A DNA stretch of 17,017 nt from Candidatus Naiadarchaeum limnaeum (GTDB lineage: Archaea > Undinarchaeota > Undinarchaeia > Undinarchaeales > Naiadarchaeaceae), in assembly GCA_014189685.1 (NCBI GenBank), contig DVAB01000036.1, forward strand, positions 1-17,017. The letters run 5' to 3'. Shown one piece after another: positions 5,126-17,017 of this stretch. Position 1 is the stretch's first letter; every line of letters begins with the position of its first letter. The notes under the pieces are model-generated. The model saw nothing but the letters and a program-made list of their open reading frames with translations, ran no database searches and was not told where the DNA came from. The position numbers and the translations under genes are program-made.

Positions 5126-5848
5126 GTGAGAAATATGCGCAAGATTTTTGTCTATTTGGTTTTAATAGCTCTTTTCGCACTTATAGCATTTTATTTTTTG
5201 CTTCCGAAAGCGCCCTCTCCGCAGGAGGGTGATATTGTATGGCTAACACTTGTTGGAAAATTGGAGAATGGGACTATTGTTGATAATAGAACAAATTTTT
5301 TTGTATTGAATTCTACTGAGCTTCTGCCAGGAATATTCCAAGAAGTTTTAACTATGCACGAAAATGAAATGAGGGAAGTAATCTTGCCCTCAGAAAGAGC
5401 ATTTGGAAAATACAATTTCGATCTTTTGCAATCAGTTGACCGCATAAGTTCAGTAGATAGATATCAAAACTTTTCAAAAGAGGAATTTGCAACTCTAACA
5501 AAAGAAAAGCCCGAGGTGTATAAGTTATACATTCTTAAGGACATAGCATGGCATGTTAATATAACAAATATGACTCGCACAACAATTTTTATTGAGCACA
5601 AACCTGTTCTTCAGTCTCTCTACTTCGATCCCTTATCAACTCAGTGGGCGGTTCGAGTAAGAGGAATTGATCCAGATAAAATAATCTATACATATGAACC
5701 AAAAGTTGGTGCTCCAACTGTGTTTGGGGGAAAGCCAGGCGTGGTTAAGGAAATGGACGGTTTTAGAATAATTGTTGATTTAAACCATCCACTTGCTGGG
5801 AAAACTATTACTTACAATATAAAGCTCTGGAATTTTACATCGGCTTAG
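5126..5848 (+). CDS. Membrane-anchored FKBP-type peptidyl-prolyl cis-trans isomerase
   Basis: Probable folding factor for exported proteins. An N-terminal hydrophobic anchor (about residues 6-26) is followed by an FKBP domain: GDIVWLTLVGKLENGTIVD, LLPGIFQEVL, then REVILPSERAFGKYNF. It closes after a long insertion with VDLNHPLAGKTITYNIKLWNF, the ending typical of SlyD-like FKBPs. The insert between the two halves (about 100-212) holds the usual IF chaperone flap and is larger than in small cytosolic SlyD proteins. The catalytic domain would lie outside the membrane. The GTG at 5126 abuts the SRP54 TAA; an in-frame ATG at 5135 is an equally reasonable start and loses only three residues. The stop overlaps the convergent surface-protein gene by 14 bases. 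It shares the SRP54 transcript. Confidence 0.85.
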   Translation: MRNMRKIFVYLVLIALFALIAFYFLLPKAPSPQEGDIVWLTLVGKLENGTIVDNRTNFFVLNSTELLPGIFQEVLTMHENEMREVILPSERAFGKYNFDLLQSVDRISSVDRYQNFSKEEFATLTKEKPEVYKLYILKDIAWHVNITNMTRTTIFIEHKPVLQSLYFDPLSTQWAVRVRGIDPDKIIYTYEPKVGAPTVFGGKPGVVKEMDGFRIIVDLNHPLAGKTITYNIKLWNFTSA

Positions 5849-8399
5849 TTTCTGGAGTTTCGCCCAAGAATTTTTCTGTAACCTCGATTCGTCTCAGCTT
5901 TCCAATTTTTGTTGTTCTCACCAACCCTCTATTTTCAAGAGAAACAATCCATCTAAACAGCGTTGTTGGCGGCATTCCTGTATGATGAAAGATGCGTGCC
6001 ATTGTTGACTTTCCGCCGTGCAAGATTAAAACTTCCATGACTTCTTTTTCCCTATAATGGAGAGCAGAAAGAATTGATGCCATATGCGCATTAACCGAAA
6101 GTGGCTGCGCTGCATAGGAGTTTGCCAATGTTGGGAATGCAGGCTGCGGAGCAGGAATTTTTACTTCAACTTGTTTAACTTCTTCATCTTTCACAACTTT
6201 TGTTTTTAGCTCATCAGGGACAATCTTTTCATAAACTATTTTTGGCCTTACAATTATCCTTGGGCGGATAACAACTGGCCTTTCAATTTTAACTTTTGGA
6301 GCAGGTGTTGTTTGCACTTGTATATCATTTAAAATTCTTTGTATGAAATCTGGTTTATATTTTTCAACAGAGCCTGAAATTTTCGGCATTCTAAATGATT
6401 TTATTTTTTCTAAAAAATTAAATTTCGGCTTTTCAATGGTTGGAGTGCTTATTTTTGGAAGTTTAAGTTTCCCTGTATGCAATGTGTATCCAACTAATCC
6501 TGCAAATAAAATTGCTCCGAATGCTGCGATTACATACGGATTCTTAGCTTGATTTAATATTGCAAAGCCTGTTGATGCTTGCTTCTGTGTTGTTGTTTCT
6601 GGAACAGTTGTAACAGAAGCTATCTCAGTTTCAGCAGGAATTAAGTCTGTTGGAGCAGGAAGTGTAGCAGTTTGAACTTTCTCTTTCGCCCCTATTGCAA
6701 AGAACGAAAAGCTTTGCGCTGGGGCAGAATAGTGATACTTATCCTCTACTGAACCAACCTTTCTTGTATTCAATTTTTTCCATTCTCCGTCCTCATAGTG
6801 CAAAAGAACAATATCCATTCCAGCTGCATTTTTTCCTAGCCAGGATGAGTTTGCCAAGAATTCAATTTCAGCATTCTGAATAGAATCGCTCTTGAAATTT
6901 ATTGGATCAACGCTTATGTATGTAAATACTGCGCCAGCATCAGAAACCGTGCCCGGTTTTGTGAAGTATCTTGTAACTCTTATCGCGCCGTTTGAAATTT
7001 TTTCTTTTGCAGAAACTGAAGTTGTGAAAATATAGTGCTTGTCCCAAAGCTGGAAAACTGCTTTTTTTAAATCTCCTGGGTCCACATTACCAATTATTAC
7101 AGTTTCCTGCGGCAAGAGAATTCCTCCTCCCCCTCCGCCGCCTCCCCCTCCGCCCCCAGTTTCTCCAGGCGGTGGTGGAGGTGGAGCAACATTTGTTTGG
7201 GCAGTATCATTTGTCCAGCTTCCAATATTTGTAACATTATCCACTGGCCGCACTTGAATTTCATAAATTGTGCTCGGGCTTAAACCAGAGATTGTTGTCA
7301 AATTAGTTGGAGCAGTAACATTTTCCCTGAAAGTTCCATTCAGCCAAACCTCTGTATGATTGAAATCAGAATCAGAAGGATTTGTCCATGCCCAAGTTAT
7401 TGAAGAGGAAGTTGTTGTAGTTTCGTTTAAATTTGTTATATTTGAAGGTGGGGTATAAGTAGTTTCAAAAGACCCAAGGGTTGCAACAGCAGGAGTGCCA
7501 TACATTGTAAATTCAGTATCTGTGCTCTCAACGACTAAATCAACATACTTCAATTGGGCTGTTGGCCACCAATAGTGCGATATTCCCACTAACGAAGTTT
7601 GGGGCGTGGTAAAGTCAAAATTTGTTACAAATTGGTTTCCGTCAATTGAAGCATTGAACTTATCCGTGTTTGCGTTGTGCCTCAGAGTCACGCCGTACCA
7701 TATGTCCGCATTGTACGCTCCATATGTTATAGTCGAACCATTTCCCGTTGTTATTATATTTCCCACATCATCAAATTGTACTCCCCCGCCGCTATCCCAA
7801 GTGCTGCCTCGCTGTGTTATATATTTGTGTGTGCCAGTCGCTTGGCTTGAGCGATAAACCAATCCAGAAATCAAAAGCCCAGAGCTGCTTACATTTGGTA
7901 TGTATGGCTCATTGCCAACTTCTGGCTGCGCTGCAATAAAGAGCAGAGAAGTATTTCCTGTAAAAACAACACCTGTTTCATTCTGCTCAAAATTCTGCGT
8001 CCAGTCAGAAGTCCTATCATCATAGTCATCTGCATAAGTGAAAATTGTTGAGTTTGTATAGTTGGCATTTGGGTTTTTGCAATAAATTGAGTAAGAATAG
8101 TCGCTGTTAGTGGTGTTTAAGCGGATTATTATTCGGTCTCCGACTATTAGCCATTGGAACGGAACTTGCGTTGCATTGTCCTTTACAACCCTCAAGTCCT
8201 TTTTATCAGCAAAAGAGCAGGAAACATTGCTAACCTTAATAGGTATAGGCTCGTTCGTATGCGTTCCATTATTGTGTGTAATATTTATCGTATAAGAATT
8301 CTGCCAATTACTATCCCACCATGCGCTAACTGAAAAAATGTTTAGCAAAAAGATTACAAGAATTATTGCTAGTACAATTTTTAGCCCCTTTGGAGCCAT
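5835..8399 (-). CDS. Surface-exposed transmembrane protein with cytoplasmic winged-helix domain (putative one-component regulator)
   Basis: Order of parts: signal peptide (about 1-26, cleavage likely after SVSA); DUF2341-like module beginning WWDSNWQNSYTINI (about 27-115); a jelly-roll/concanavalin-like region (about 125-310) with GVTLRHNANTDKFNASIDG; a fibronectin type III-like domain (about 317-402); a Pro6/Gly12 hinge (406-426); a PGF-pre-PGF-like domain (about 432-572) with SWLGKN, VLLHYEDGEWKKLNT and FSFFAIG; a Thr/Pro stalk; one membrane helix (about 620-640); a basic proline-rich linker; and a C-terminal winged helix (about 773-846: MARIFHHTGMPPTTLFRWIV, then LENRGLVRTTKIGKLRRIEVT). 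Many N-glycosylation sequons precede the helix and none matter after it, matching type I topology with the DNA-binding domain inside. Function as a sensor-regulator is inferred from architecture. Unlike most genes here it has a 5' leader with an SD-like GAGGGG. Confidence 0.85.
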   Translation of the reverse strand: MAPKGLKIVLAIILVIFLLNIFSVSAWWDSNWQNSYTINITHNNGTHTNEPIPIKVSNVSCSFADKKDLRVVKDNATQVPFQWLIVGDRIIIRLNTTNSDYSYSIYCKNPNANYTNSTIFTYADDYDDRTSDWTQNFEQNETGVVFTGNTSLLFIAAQPEVGNEPYIPNVSSSGLLISGLVYRSSQATGTHKYITQRGSTWDSGGGVQFDDVGNIITTGNGSTITYGAYNADIWYGVTLRHNANTDKFNASIDGNQFVTNFDFTTPQTSLVGISHYWWPTAQLKYVDLVVESTDTEFTMYGTPAVATLGSFETTYTPPSNITNLNETTTTSSSITWAWTNPSDSDFNHTEVWLNGTFRENVTAPTNLTTISGLSPSTIYEIQVRPVDNVTNIGSWTNDTAQTNVAPPPPPPGETGGGGGGGGGGGGILLPQETVIIGNVDPGDLKKAVFQLWDKHYIFTTSVSAKEKISNGAIRVTRYFTKPGTVSDAGAVFTYISVDPINFKSDSIQNAEIEFLANSSWLGKNAAGMDIVLLHYEDGEWKKLNTRKVGSVEDKYHYSAPAQSFSFFAIGAKEKVQTATLPAPTDLIPAETEIASVTTVPETTTQKQASTGFAILNQAKNPYVIAAFGAILFAGLVGYTLHTGKLKLPKISTPTIEKPKFNFLEKIKSFRMPKISGSVEKYKPDFIQRILNDIQVQTTPAPKVKIERPVVIRPRIIVRPKIVYEKIVPDELKTKVVKDEEVKQVEVKIPAPQPAFPTLANSYAAQPLSVNAHMASILSALHYREKEVMEVLILHGGKSTMARIFHHTGMPPTTLFRWIVSLENRGLVRTTKIGKLRRIEVTEKFLGETPETKPM
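7122..7184 (-). repeat. GC-rich Pro/Gly hinge with 15-bp tandem duplication
   Basis: Encodes six Pro, GET, then twelve Gly. Units 7126-7140 and 7141-7155 match at 14 of 15 bases, an in-frame five-codon duplication. The coding strand carries three runs of five G and several GG runs, an outlier in this AT-rich sequence. Confidence 0.75.
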
Positions 8400-8445: not shown

Positions 8446-8455
8446 TATTTAAATA
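8446..8455 (-). promoter_or_regulatory. TATA box for the transmembrane winged-helix gene
   Basis: TATTTAAATA, also palindromic. The expected start site is about 8424, leaving a leader of about 25 nt before the ATG at 8399 that contains an SD-like GAGGGG. No gene on the plus strand lies at a matching distance. Confidence 0.55.
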
Positions 8456-8520: not shown

Positions 8521-11500
8521 TTAATAGCTACACCTACTGGTATAAGCTAAATCAGTTGCCCACCCATTAGCAGTTCCATTGCAGGCAAAAGTCCTTGCCT
8601 CGATTTCATATGTTTGCAGGACAAGCCCTGAGAAGTTATAGGATGTGGATGTTGTATTTACCTTAAATGTGTTGTTCACAGAAACCTCAACTTTGCAGAA
8701 ATCAACATGGGTTGGATTTGTCCAATTCCAAAGAATCCAATTGTCTCCAGTCACAGTTTCTCGCAGGTCTGTAACAGGGCCTAAATTATCGCCTGCACCA
8801 CCCCCGCCACCCTCACCACTTACATTTATGAAAACCCATCTGAATTTGCCGACAAATGTATTGCCCCCCATATCATTTGCAAAAACCCTGAAGGTATAGT
8901 TTGTATCATTTGAAAGTCCTGTCTGGTTTCTGTACCAGTTTGTGTTAGTTAGTCCCTGAGTCATGGAATAATTAGTCAATTCGTTCCATTCAAGAGTTGA
9001 TGAGCTTCCAGCAGCGCTCAGGGTTACATTAATAAAAGCCCACAACTGGTTTACTGTTTCATTATTTGGAGTTGGAGTTACATAGGTTATTGTTAGATTT
9101 CCTTGTGAAACGCTACTAGCTTCTGTAACAAAGTTATTGTTCTCAAGAACTTCAGCATATCTTCCTGCCCCATCAACTACTGCATATAAGCGTCCAGTTC
9201 CTGTTTGAGTAGGGGTCCAGTTTAGAGTGTAGAGTTTTGAGGCTCTGAAGGCATCATTAATGTCTATTACTTGCGAATCAATGTATTTGCTTGAAACTTG
9301 GCCATTGTTAAGTATTGTAACCTGTCCAGTTGTGCCATTTGCCACCAATATATCAATATCTCCATCCATGTCAAAATCTGCAAAATCAAAGTCCTGGGCA
9401 TTGGAAGAGCCAATGAATGTAGAGCCCCAGTTTGAAATATTTGATGGATTTGTGTTGTTCAATAATCTTGGGTTTGCAATATCAGTTAACATGTCCAAAT
9501 CCCCATCAGAATCAAAGTCAGCGATTATTGAGCCTAAATTGACATGCTGTGAGCCTCCATAGCCATAGCCTGTTACTGAGGATGGCCAAGTGGTTAAGTT
9601 CAGAGTGTACCTTGGATTATGAAGCGCAGTTACATTTGATACAAATTCAGCATCAAACACAACTATTTCATAATCCCCATCACCTTCAAAGTCACCAACT
9701 TCAACATCATCAGCCACTCCAACGCTCACTCTTGAATAGCTTGGCCAACTTGATATTGTTGTTCCTATATTTTCCATAATGCTTACATTCTGTGTTGCTG
9801 CAACAACAATATCATTATCTCCATCATTATCAAAATCAGCAATCGCATGCCTTCCGCAGGCACTAGAGGCGTTATACCAGTCCCATTTACTAAAGTTAAT
9901 GTTTCCATTGTTATCGAACACTGAAATTATACACGCAACTGGCTGTGCAATAACAATCTCAGCATCTCCATCACCATCCATATCAGCAAACCTTATTTTA
10001 GGGCGGTCATCATCCAGAGTTCTGTTATAAGTTGCCCACTGCGAGATGTTTAAGTTATTTCCAGGATTTTCAAAAAGTATGAGCTCCGTGGACAAATGGC
10101 CTACAATATCATTATCCCCATCATTATCAAAATCAGCTGCGGTTAAGCTATATATAGTGTTTGCACTGTTGCTCAATGTTCTATTAAAAGCTGTCCATGT
10201 GCTTATGTTTATGTTATTTCCTGGGTTTCTCCATGTTGTGATCATTGTGTCCCCAGAGAAGATTCCTGTTTTTCCACTTGTTACAACATCGCTGTCATTG
10301 TCTCCATCCAAATCAACTGGAATTGCTGCATTGGTTATGTATCCGGCAGCAGCGCGATTCTGTGTATATTGTCCTATATCAGGCCCTCCAGGTGTTACAT
10401 TATAAAGTGTAGTGTTGACAGCCCAGTTTCCGCTCAGAGTTGTGACATTTGCTGCAACGTAATCTGTTTGCAAGCTTACAACAAAGACTGTTGAGTTCGC
10501 TGCCAATCTTAAAATTCCGCCTGAACTTATAAAATCACTTATGTTTTGAGTTGTGTTCAAAATAGCCACTACTTCAATATCTACAGGATCAGGACAAGCC
10601 TGATATATTCTGCTCCAAGTGTTTGAGCTAAAGTTGTAGAGTGAGACTTGTATGTTGTCTACATCAATAGAGCATGCAGTATATTCTCCGAATCCCTCCC
10701 AAACAACTCTTATACTCTTTATTGCAGATTTTGAAGCAGATAGCGTTACATTAAAATCAAAAACATGGCCAGTATCATTAGCAGTTGTATTTGCATTTAC
10801 TTTTGCGCGCAAATTATCTGAAAAAGATACATTTGCATAGCTATTGTTTGTTGCGTTCGGCCCTGTCCCAAATTCAAATGTGCCGCCTGCCTCATAAGTG
10901 TAATTTGCCTTATGAGTTGTGCTTGGCGTTGATATTCCGCTATAGGTATATGTGTTTAAAGTAGCGTTGCCAGTTCTTATTATATCTACAGAAACATTTA
11001 TTGTGTTCTGCTGGTTTGTTGTTATGCTTGAGTTTGTGAGGTTCATTGCAACTATATCTGGCGGATTTAATGCTCTGAAATTGGAAGTTACATTGATGGC
11101 AACATAATCGGTATAAGTTGTTCTTGTATCCCCAACTGCGGCATCCATAGAAGTGTTTACTCCAATTCTAAGAAAATTATTAGAACTTACAAAATTGCTA
11201 ATATTCTGCTTTGTGTCAAGCACTCCAGTGAGTGTTACATCTCCAGAAAGAGGGCATGCTCCAGCAAATTTATGCCAAGAATTTGAGCTAAAGTTGTAGA
11301 AGTACGCGTTTAGTGCCTCTGACCCTCCAGGAAGATTTGAACAATCAGCTCCTGTTGCGCCTTCCCACACAACTCTTATGCTACTAATTCCTGATTTTGG
11401 CTCTTCTAGTTTAAAATCAAAAATATGCCCTGATTCATTATTGAGAGGCTCCTCGTTGGAAGTTGTTGCTGTTGCTTTTACATTGTCAGAAGCAGTAACA

Positions 11501-11715
11501 TTTGTATAATTGTTTGCTGATGCTTGTGGCCCTGTTCCAAACTCAAAAGTCCCAACACCTCTTACAGAATAGTTTGCTTTGTGAGTTGTGCTCACATTTT
11601 TTATGTCTGTGTAATTATAAGTTCGCATGTATGCAAAAGTATGCGGCATTATTAAAAATAAAGAAATTAGAATAACTGCGCCTACAAAGAGAATTTTTTC
11701 TCTATTATTGAGCAT
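8521..11715 (-). CDS. Large secreted surface protein with seven FG-GAP/VCBS repeats (beta-propeller) and fibronectin-like C-terminus
   Basis: A signal peptide (about 1-28, ending PHTFA) is followed by two copies of a roughly 180-residue domain (about 32-212 and 255-425). Each has STTHKANY, FEFGTGP, FDF, IRVVWEG, a cysteine pair, YNFSSN and DYVA. Seven calcium-loop motifs of the D-x-D-x-DGD/NDGD type follow at about residues 467, 527, 577, 626, 674, 732 and 779, spaced 47-60 residues, matching one seven-bladed integrin-alpha-like propeller. Then come a CARDB-like segment (about 808-866), an Ig-like domain (about 872-966), a GEGGGGGAG hinge and a fibronectin III-like domain to the end. I counted about fifty NxS/T sequons. 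No C-terminal anchor or sorting signal is visible, so it is secreted or held by partners. Adhesion or glycan binding is plausible but unproven. A TATA-like element 26 nt from the ATG suggests a leaderless message. Confidence 0.88.
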   Translation of the reverse strand: MLNNREKILFVGAVILISLFLIMPHTFAYMRTYNYTDIKNVSTTHKANYSVRGVGTFEFGTGPQASANNYTNVTASDNVKATATTSNEEPLNNESGHIFDFKLEEPKSGISSIRVVWEGATGADCSNLPGGSEALNAYFYNFSSNSWHKFAGACPLSGDVTLTGVLDTKQNISNFVSSNNFLRIGVNTSMDAAVGDTRTTYTDYVAINVTSNFRALNPPDIVAMNLTNSSITTNQQNTINVSVDIIRTGNATLNTYTYSGISTPSTTHKANYTYEAGGTFEFGTGPNATNNSYANVSFSDNLRAKVNANTTANDTGHVFDFNVTLSASKSAIKSIRVVWEGFGEYTACSIDVDNIQVSLYNFSSNTWSRIYQACPDPVDIEVVAILNTTQNISDFISSGGILRLAANSTVFVVSLQTDYVAANVTTLSGNWAVNTTLYNVTPGGPDIGQYTQNRAAAGYITNAAIPVDLDGDNDSDVVTSGKTGIFSGDTMITTWRNPGNNINISTWTAFNRTLSNSANTIYSLTAADFDNDGDNDIVGHLSTELILFENPGNNLNISQWATYNRTLDDDRPKIRFADMDGDGDAEIVIAQPVACIISVFDNNGNINFSKWDWYNASSACGRHAIADFDNDGDNDIVVAATQNVSIMENIGTTISSWPSYSRVSVGVADDVEVGDFEGDGDYEIVVFDAEFVSNVTALHNPRYTLNLTTWPSSVTGYGYGGSQHVNLGSIIADFDSDGDLDMLTDIANPRLLNNTNPSNISNWGSTFIGSSNAQDFDFADFDMDGDIDILVANGTTGQVTILNNGQVSSKYIDSQVIDINDAFRASKLYTLNWTPTQTGTGRLYAVVDGAGRYAEVLENNNFVTEASSVSQGNLTITYVTPTPNNETVNQLWAFINVTLSAAGSSSTLEWNELTNYSMTQGLTNTNWYRNQTGLSNDTNYTFRVFANDMGGNTFVGKFRWVFINVSGEGGGGGAGDNLGPVTDLRETVTGDNWILWNWTNPTHVDFCKVEVSVNNTFKVNTTSTSYNFSGLVLQTYEIEARTFACNGTANGWATDLAYTSRCSY
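9301..10398 (-). repeat. Seven FG-GAP/VCBS repeats
   Basis: Encodes about residues 440-805. Seven Asp-rich calcium-loop motifs, mostly AD(F/M)DxDGDxD(I/L)V, at 47-60 residue intervals. Near-identical DNA (for example 20 bases shared at 9821-9840 and 10118-10137) shows the repeat at nucleotide level too. Confidence 0.85.
10441..10953 (-). repeat. Duplicated N-terminal domain, copy 2, of the propeller protein
   Basis: Encodes about residues 255-425, diverged in loops but keeping the core strands and the two cysteines of copy 1; an ancient internal duplication. Confidence 0.8.
11080..11622 (-). repeat. Duplicated N-terminal domain, copy 1, of the propeller protein
   Basis: Encodes about residues 32-212. 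Aligns with copy 2 through HKANY, FEFGTGP, FDF, IRVVWEG, the Cys pair, YNFSSN and DYVA. A 19-base identical stretch (11282-11300) recurs 660 bases away in copy 2 at 10622-10640. Confidence 0.8.
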
Positions 11716-15885: not shown

Positions 15886-17017
15886 TTATCTCTCTTCCCA
15901 TTCTTCAAGCTTCTCCTCAACTTCTTTAAGCTCTTTTTTCCTTGAAATCTTTTTCTTAATACCTTTTGCGTATTTTGCAATTGCGAAAATAACAAATGCA
16001 GCAAATCCTATCACAGCCGCATAGAGAAGAACACTGCTGGGGGATATTTTTGCTTTGCTCAAAAGAATTACTGCTTCCTCAATATGCTTTTTCGCCACTA
16101 AAACCAAACCCGAGGCTTTTTCAAGTTTTCCAGGGGTTAAAGCAGTCTTTGCCTCTGCAAGATTGCGATTCACGATTCTTAAATGAGTGAGAACTCTGCT
16201 TACATCAAAACCCTGTATTTGTTTTTGGAGCGCAACATTCCATATTTCATTTGCAACAAACTGTGCATTTGCTATCTCTCTTTCCAATCTCTTTATCTCC
16301 CTCTTCTCAAAAGATTTCTCAAGATTTTCATCTATGTGCAAGCCTATATCATAGTCTTTTGTAATGCGGTTTGAGGTTATTTCTAGTAATAATTTATCCA
16401 TCCCTACTATGGCATCATCCGGCACATAGAGGGACATTGCAAATATTGCTATCTCATTTTTCTTCAAACCTGGAATAATTAATGGAGTTATGTTTATACT
16501 ATATGGAGCCCCACTCACAGATAGGGAAATATCTTTTTGCTCGTTCACTCCATTGTTTATTGTAGTTATTATGTATAAATCTGAGCTTCCCTGCGGAATA
16601 TAAATTTCTGCCGGATAACTGAGTATTCTCAAAGTTCTATAGGAGGTAAAAGAGATATCTGTGTTGTCACCGCTTATTGAGTTTACAACTATTTTTACAT
16701 CAGCTCTATCATCATTATCAAAATCCACATATCCTGGCTTTCCAACTTCTAAGAGAAGATTTACTGGAGTCGAGCTTATTGTTATGTTAACTCTGTTTAT
16801 CGATACATCATTAATAATCACTAGGTGCTCCTCAAAATCTATTTTTGCACCCTTGGCTACCAATGCAACACCTTCCGCTGTTCTCTCTACTGGCCCTATA
16901 ATTCTCATTAAAAGAGAATCCCCTTCATGCGGTGTTTTTCTGTGTTCGTCCTTTTTTTCAAAATCAATATCTATGTCCTTCCTCTTTTTACCGCCCTCTC
17001 CCTCGCCTCCTCCACCG
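15886..17017 (-). CDS. Surface protein with C-terminal membrane anchor, C-terminal part (runs off right edge)
   Basis: An internal ATG at 16908 looks like a start, but the same frame is open all the way to the edge: 36 more codons, including a Gly/Glu-rich hinge (GGGGEGEGG), a charged linker and DSLL leading into MRIIGPVER. So this is the C-terminal end of a longer gene. Parts in order: hinge; a beta domain with VNITISSTPVNLLLEVG and the FG-GAP-like loop VDFDNDDRADV; a NEW3/CARDB-like beta domain (from YPAEIYIPQGSSDLYIITT); a helical charged stalk (ENLEKSFEKREIKRLEREI onward); one membrane helix (SSVLLYAAVIGFAAFVIFAI); and a short basic then acidic cytoplasmic coiled tail ending EEWEER. Function is likely surface display. 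Promoter and N-terminus lie outside. Confidence 0.82.
   Translation of the reverse strand, partial: GGGGEGEGGKKRKDIDIDFEKKDEHRKTPHEGDSLLMRIIGPVERTAEGVALVAKGAKIDFEEHLVIINDVSINRVNITISSTPVNLLLEVGKPGYVDFDNDDRADVKIVVNSISGDNTDISFTSYRTLRILSYPAEIYIPQGSSDLYIITTINNGVNEQKDISLSVSGAPYSINITPLIIPGLKKNEIAIFAMSLYVPDDAIVGMDKLLLEITSNRITKDYDIGLHIDENLEKSFEKREIKRLEREIANAQFVANEIWNVALQKQIQGFDVSRVLTHLRIVNRNLAEAKTALTPGKLEKASGLVLVAKKHIEEAVILLSKAKISPSSVLLYAAVIGFAAFVIFAIAKYAKGIKKKISRKKELKEVEEKLEEWEER

Follow-up and report, generated by a model that had tools for sequence, protein, structure and literature searches.

The window analysed here (17,017 nucleotides, the entire 17-kb contig of a 984-kb, 98% complete genome of the archaeon Candidatus Naiadarchaeum limnaeum) harbours a gene which raises the question of what a large, adhesin-like surface region may be doing on the same polypeptide as a putative DNA-binding domain. 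The original prediction regarded the product as a surface-sensing one-component regulator, and, judging from its sequence, this appears to be the likeliest role: the protein is probably a DUF7343-type archaeal regulator of transcription, a one-component system tethered to the membrane and bearing a greatly enlarged surface-protein ectodomain. The predicted frame was found intact on the minus strand, with the following parts:

5835..8399, minus strand: whole gene, a single intact frame of 854 aa (signal peptide, ectodomain, membrane helix, linker, winged helix; order shared by the orthologues P0002-P0005)
8446..8453, minus strand: candidate archaeal TATA box TTTAAATA, 54 bases upstream of the ATG of the regulator gene
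8322..8399, minus strand: signal peptide, residues 1-26 (hydropathy 2.86 at residues 8-26, net +2 before, SVSA at the end)
7470..8321, minus strand: N-terminal ectodomain region, residues 27-310, WWDSNW at the start (fold putative, without Pfam match, poor model)
7233..7442, minus strand: fibronectin type III (FN3) domain, residues 320-389 (E 1.6e-4, slightly under the Pfam cut-off; matches solved FN3 domains)
7122..7157, minus strand: 12 consecutive glycines, residues 415-426 (each of the four orthologues has glycine runs too, 4 to 12 long)
6693..7025, minus strand: PGF-pre-PGF domain, residues 459-569 (TIGR04213, E 1.5e-15, 57.5 bits against a cut-off of 28)
6480..6536, minus strand: membrane helix, residues 622-640 (hydropathy 1.95; 21 N-glycosylation sequons ahead, 0 behind; basic residues after)
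6075..6479, minus strand: linker of 135 aa, residues 641-775, predicted to be cytoplasmic (basic, net +12; proline-rich, 12%)
5862..6074, minus strand: C-terminal winged helix, residues 776-846, DUF7343/IclR-like (profile matches, conservation)

The candidate TATA box suggests that the regulator gene has its own promoter, and no palindromic operator whose arms match exactly over at least 6 positions was found in the 121-base stretch upstream of it. Chance, annotation artefact and assembly fusion were ruled out as the origin of this combination, since the order of the parts is kept in other genomes: a search for homologues having the ectodomain and the winged helix together revealed four orthologues, one in each of 4 of the 5 other genomes searched from this small phylum, and the large-frame version is present in 5 of the 6 genomes.

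The orientation of the protein in the membrane is indicated by several signals. The signal peptide was recognised as a hydrophobic segment at residues 8-26, and the single C-terminal membrane helix, expected to be followed by basic residues, indeed has a net charge of +3 in the 15 residues directly after it; a basic flank is found at this place in every orthologue as well. Among four non-redundant orthologues, the window protein included, 148 sequons were counted in the 2788 residues before the helix versus 2 in the 572 residues after it (Fisher P 3e-10), a count which partly reflects the composition of the N-, S- and T-rich ectodomain, such composition being itself typical of exported regions. 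Because of the sequon distribution and the flanking charge, the C-terminus most likely lies inside, in agreement with the single-pass topology proposed originally. An STT3 oligosaccharyltransferase is encoded in the genome, and the regulator protein is probably exported and N-glycosylated.

The ectodomain was predicted to contain DUF2341-like, jelly-roll, FN3 and PGF-pre-PGF modules, of which the latter two could be recognised. The PGF-pre-PGF match lies above the cut-off of its family, and the FN3 assignment, despite the sub-cut-off Pfam score, is backed by the matches to solved FN3 domains and by 45-52% identity to the FN3 modules that archaeal surface proteins carry (Methanomicrobia, ANME-2, Woesearchaeota and one further archaeon); thus, the ectodomain uses a common archaeal stock of surface modules. 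Proteins of other archaea found in the contig scan (L004-L008) match through the FN3 module only and were dropped as whole-protein homologues. In the case of residues 27-310, the Pfam search gave no match even at E 10, which holds for DUF2341 (PF10102) too, and the jelly-roll was not confirmed, the sole model being a single-sequence prediction too poor for use (pLDDT 35). The orthologue P0002 shows a sub-threshold DUF2341 match (E 0.011), being the only orthologue with one, and a sub-threshold CBM_4_9 match in the Pfam search. As a whole, the ectodomain appears to be a mostly beta-type, glycosylation-prone surface region of adhesin-like make-up. It shares the PGF-pre-PGF domain and FN3-type modules with archaeal PGF-pre-PGF surface proteins but, unlike these, continues as a membrane helix and a cytoplasmic winged helix, without a terminal sorting signal. 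A PGF-CTERM archaeosortase substrate, recognised by a PGF motif, a hydrophobic segment and a basic tail at the extreme C-terminus, was rejected as an identity for the protein, since 214 residues including the winged helix come after the hydrophobic segment.

The winged helix placed by the original prediction at the extreme C-terminus is supported by an HTH_IclR match above the cut-off (residues 787-829, E 8.5e-6) and by a 19-sequence profile of the winged-helix group, which matches solved winged helices of RPC39, CodY, Lrp-type regulators and SlyA. Structure prediction was as uninformative here as for residues 27-310, and the fold rests on sequence profiles because the single-sequence model is poor (pLDDT 57). 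With the DUF7343 profile (PF24034), the window copy scored 15.5 bits when the protein was scanned and 20.6 bits when the genome was, both under the Pfam cut-off of 27.6; in the genome scan, all four orthologues scored above it, as did three more proteins encoded alongside the window copy in its genome. The winged helix of the window protein appears to belong with archaeal DUF7343, with which it has the winged-helix signature in common, down to the LTxxFLG tail seen in the Nanoarchaeota-type subgroup. Matches to the CRISPR regulator Csa3/CasR stayed under the NCBIfam cut-off and covered nothing but the winged-helix end, and were therefore rejected as a CRISPR linkage.

Winged helices can bind proteins, and the solved structure which the family profile matches best, the winged helix of the RNA polymerase III subunit RPC39, does not come from a classical regulator. 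Since the ectodomain modules, too, are common to ordinary archaeal surface proteins, the protein might serve chiefly for adhesion or as a structural component of the surface, with a winged helix that has no part in regulating transcription but holds on to the chromosome or to a protein of the cytoplasm. This seems very unlikely, as the remaining profile matches (Lrp, SlyA, CodY; IclR) are regulators that bind DNA and, of about 80 winged-helix columns, the 23 that are invariant in five sequences include basic and polar positions assigned by prediction to the recognition helix and the wing (R50, W51, R58, K68, R70 in alignment A2). The relatives moreover carry differing ectodomains on a single winged-helix type, as sensors would. 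We therefore continue with the surface-sensing regulator as the preferred reading.

The layout of the protein had been called non-standard, bacterial ToxR/CadC being the only comparison made. ToxR/CadC would be analogous as membrane one-component regulators with an extracytoplasmic sensor, but they belong to another winged-helix family and, as correctly claimed, have the reverse order, with an N-terminal cytoplasmic winged helix, a membrane helix and a periplasmic domain. ArnR and ArnR1 have the HTH in the N-terminal region, unlike the window protein, and to our knowledge, again unlike it, they have no large ectodomain. They are membrane-bound archaeal regulators of Sulfolobus (PMC13286277) and share with the window protein the character of archaeal membrane-bound one-component regulators. 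In the survey of Demey et al. (2023; PMC10269533), transmembrane transcription regulators (TTRs), defined as proteins that carry one or more membrane regions besides a predicted DNA-binding domain, occur in 367 of 404 archaeal species, the single-pass form being the commonest (56%). The window protein, with its HTH_IclR match and membrane helix, is built as such a single-pass TTR and differs from the TTRs as described there in its adhesin-type ectodomain.

The archaeal form with a C-terminal winged helix, overlooked in the comparison with ToxR/CadC, proved to be the usual one among DUF7343-type proteins. DUF7343 matches above the cut-off occur in 49 of the 60 genomes sampled from a large archaeal phylum, and in 6/6 genomes of the phylum studied here. 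In 71/71 relatives from other archaea, these being the best-scoring matches outside the phylum, mostly the top ones and not a random sample, a membrane segment precedes the winged helix and none follows it, and the winged helix ends within 40 residues of the C-terminus. The sequence of signal peptide, ectodomain, one membrane helix and C-terminal winged helix is thus common to these proteins and the window protein, a layout typical of DUF7343 proteins although Pfam does not define the family by it; the match lists also hold shorter frames, of about 100-150 aa, which may be soluble. What does stand is the unusual size and make-up of the ectodomain, which takes up about 600-800 aa in the phylum versus roughly 100-265 aa in the relatives read. 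Frames of 806-985 aa are distinctive for the phylum, the longest ones outside it, among the matches listed for several hundred genomes, being 607, 464, at least 464 and 481 aa. The gene is, accordingly, a lineage-specific large-ectodomain variant of a widespread archaeal architecture.

Besides the regulator, this genome has three membrane proteins that end in a DUF7343 winged helix. One of them (P0006, 289 aa) has a small ectodomain, another (L028, G000:C22:20521-20703, 316 aa) a CWB2 cell-wall-binding ectodomain and one membrane helix, and the third (162 aa) two membrane helices. The presence of a CWB2-bearing sibling counts in favour of a surface-sensing regulator. Together with its homologues L018, L019 and L020, this sibling type is found in 4 of the 6 genomes of the phylum. 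Winged-helix proteins of about 160-180 aa with two membrane helices (L024, G000:C51; L025, G002:C20; L043, G006:C73) share a cysteine pair in the inter-helix loop, which could serve redox or metal sensing.

Comparison of distant orthologue pairs revealed 48-69% identity in the winged helix versus 20-31% in the ectodomain, and in the closest orthologue, P0002, Ig-like domains replace the FN3 and PGF-pre-PGF domains of the window protein. Hence, the make-up of the ectodomain shifts while the winged helix is retained. No relatives were found on viral contigs.

The long proline-rich linker, anticipated by the original prediction, would suit a factor released by regulated proteolysis, in which, after shedding of the ectodomain, the linker and winged helix would be cut loose by an intramembrane protease and reach their targets in soluble form. 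M50 (site-2-type) proteases are present above the cut-off in 6/6 genomes of the phylum, and a TG[FY] motif lies about 11-15 residues ahead of the helix in the window protein (P0001), P0002 and P0004; most of P0001-P0006 also have a short hydrophobic-x-hydrophobic-P motif just past it, and both motifs are possible processing or coupling signals. M50 proteases, however, occur in 14/14 control genomes as well, so their presence says nothing specific, and the linkers of the orthologues are merely 36-52 aa long. An exosortase-family (PF09721) gene was not found across the six genomes, but the model misses Haloferax volcanii too, so that this absence counts for little. Release by proteolysis is therefore considered unlikely, and a regulator that acts while tethered is preferred.

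The gene neighbourhood is conserved only between two close orthologues and not among the remaining ones; the context therefore suggests no target genes. A gene for a secreted surface-type protein adjoins the regulator in the window (8521-11715) and in genome G001 (L013 1-432), and a secreted-protein gene adjoins that of P0006 too, which is a hint only; the neighbours in G002, G004 and G005 are unrelated. The product of 8521-11715 (minus strand) is a secreted FG-GAP repeat protein of 1064 aa, with a C-terminal FN3 like that of the regulator, and ends without membrane anchor or sorting signal. Elsewhere in the window, positions 292-2207 hold an ether-lipid head-group cluster, in which an archaetidylinositol phosphate synthase-like gene lies beside genes for a phosphatidylserine/archaetidylserine decarboxylase and a serine phosphatidyltransferase (PssA). 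The 340-aa product of 15886-16908 (minus strand), without clear family, has a charged tail and, at its C-terminus, a membrane helix, and is likely another surface protein.

In the mechanism that we infer, the protein, once exported and held in the membrane by its one helix, would use its ectodomain to report on the cell surface, where the signal might be a glycan, a second cell in contact, or the condition of the envelope or S-layer. The resulting change in the ectodomain would be relayed through the helix to the winged helix, e.g. by altered dimerisation, and the latter would most likely bind DNA near the membrane while tethered, its reach to presumed target sites being extended by the flexible basic linker. 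A bolder version, offered tentatively and as less likely than not, is that a very large adhesin acts as a direct contact sensor in a small-genome archaeon: the ectodomain would bind a host cell, a neighbour or a glycan and switch genes via the tethered winged helix without a kinase or second messenger, diversifying fast while the DNA-binding domain stays fixed.

DUF7343-type winged-helix proteins are encoded in most archaeal genomes sampled, and the literature search found no paper naming the family. The variant with an adhesin-like ectodomain is a tangible candidate for a protein by which an archaeon with a small genome might sense its surface, or a contact, directly. As a fast-changing sensor is fused here to a fixed regulator domain, the question of the ligand may be approached by comparison of the ectodomains.
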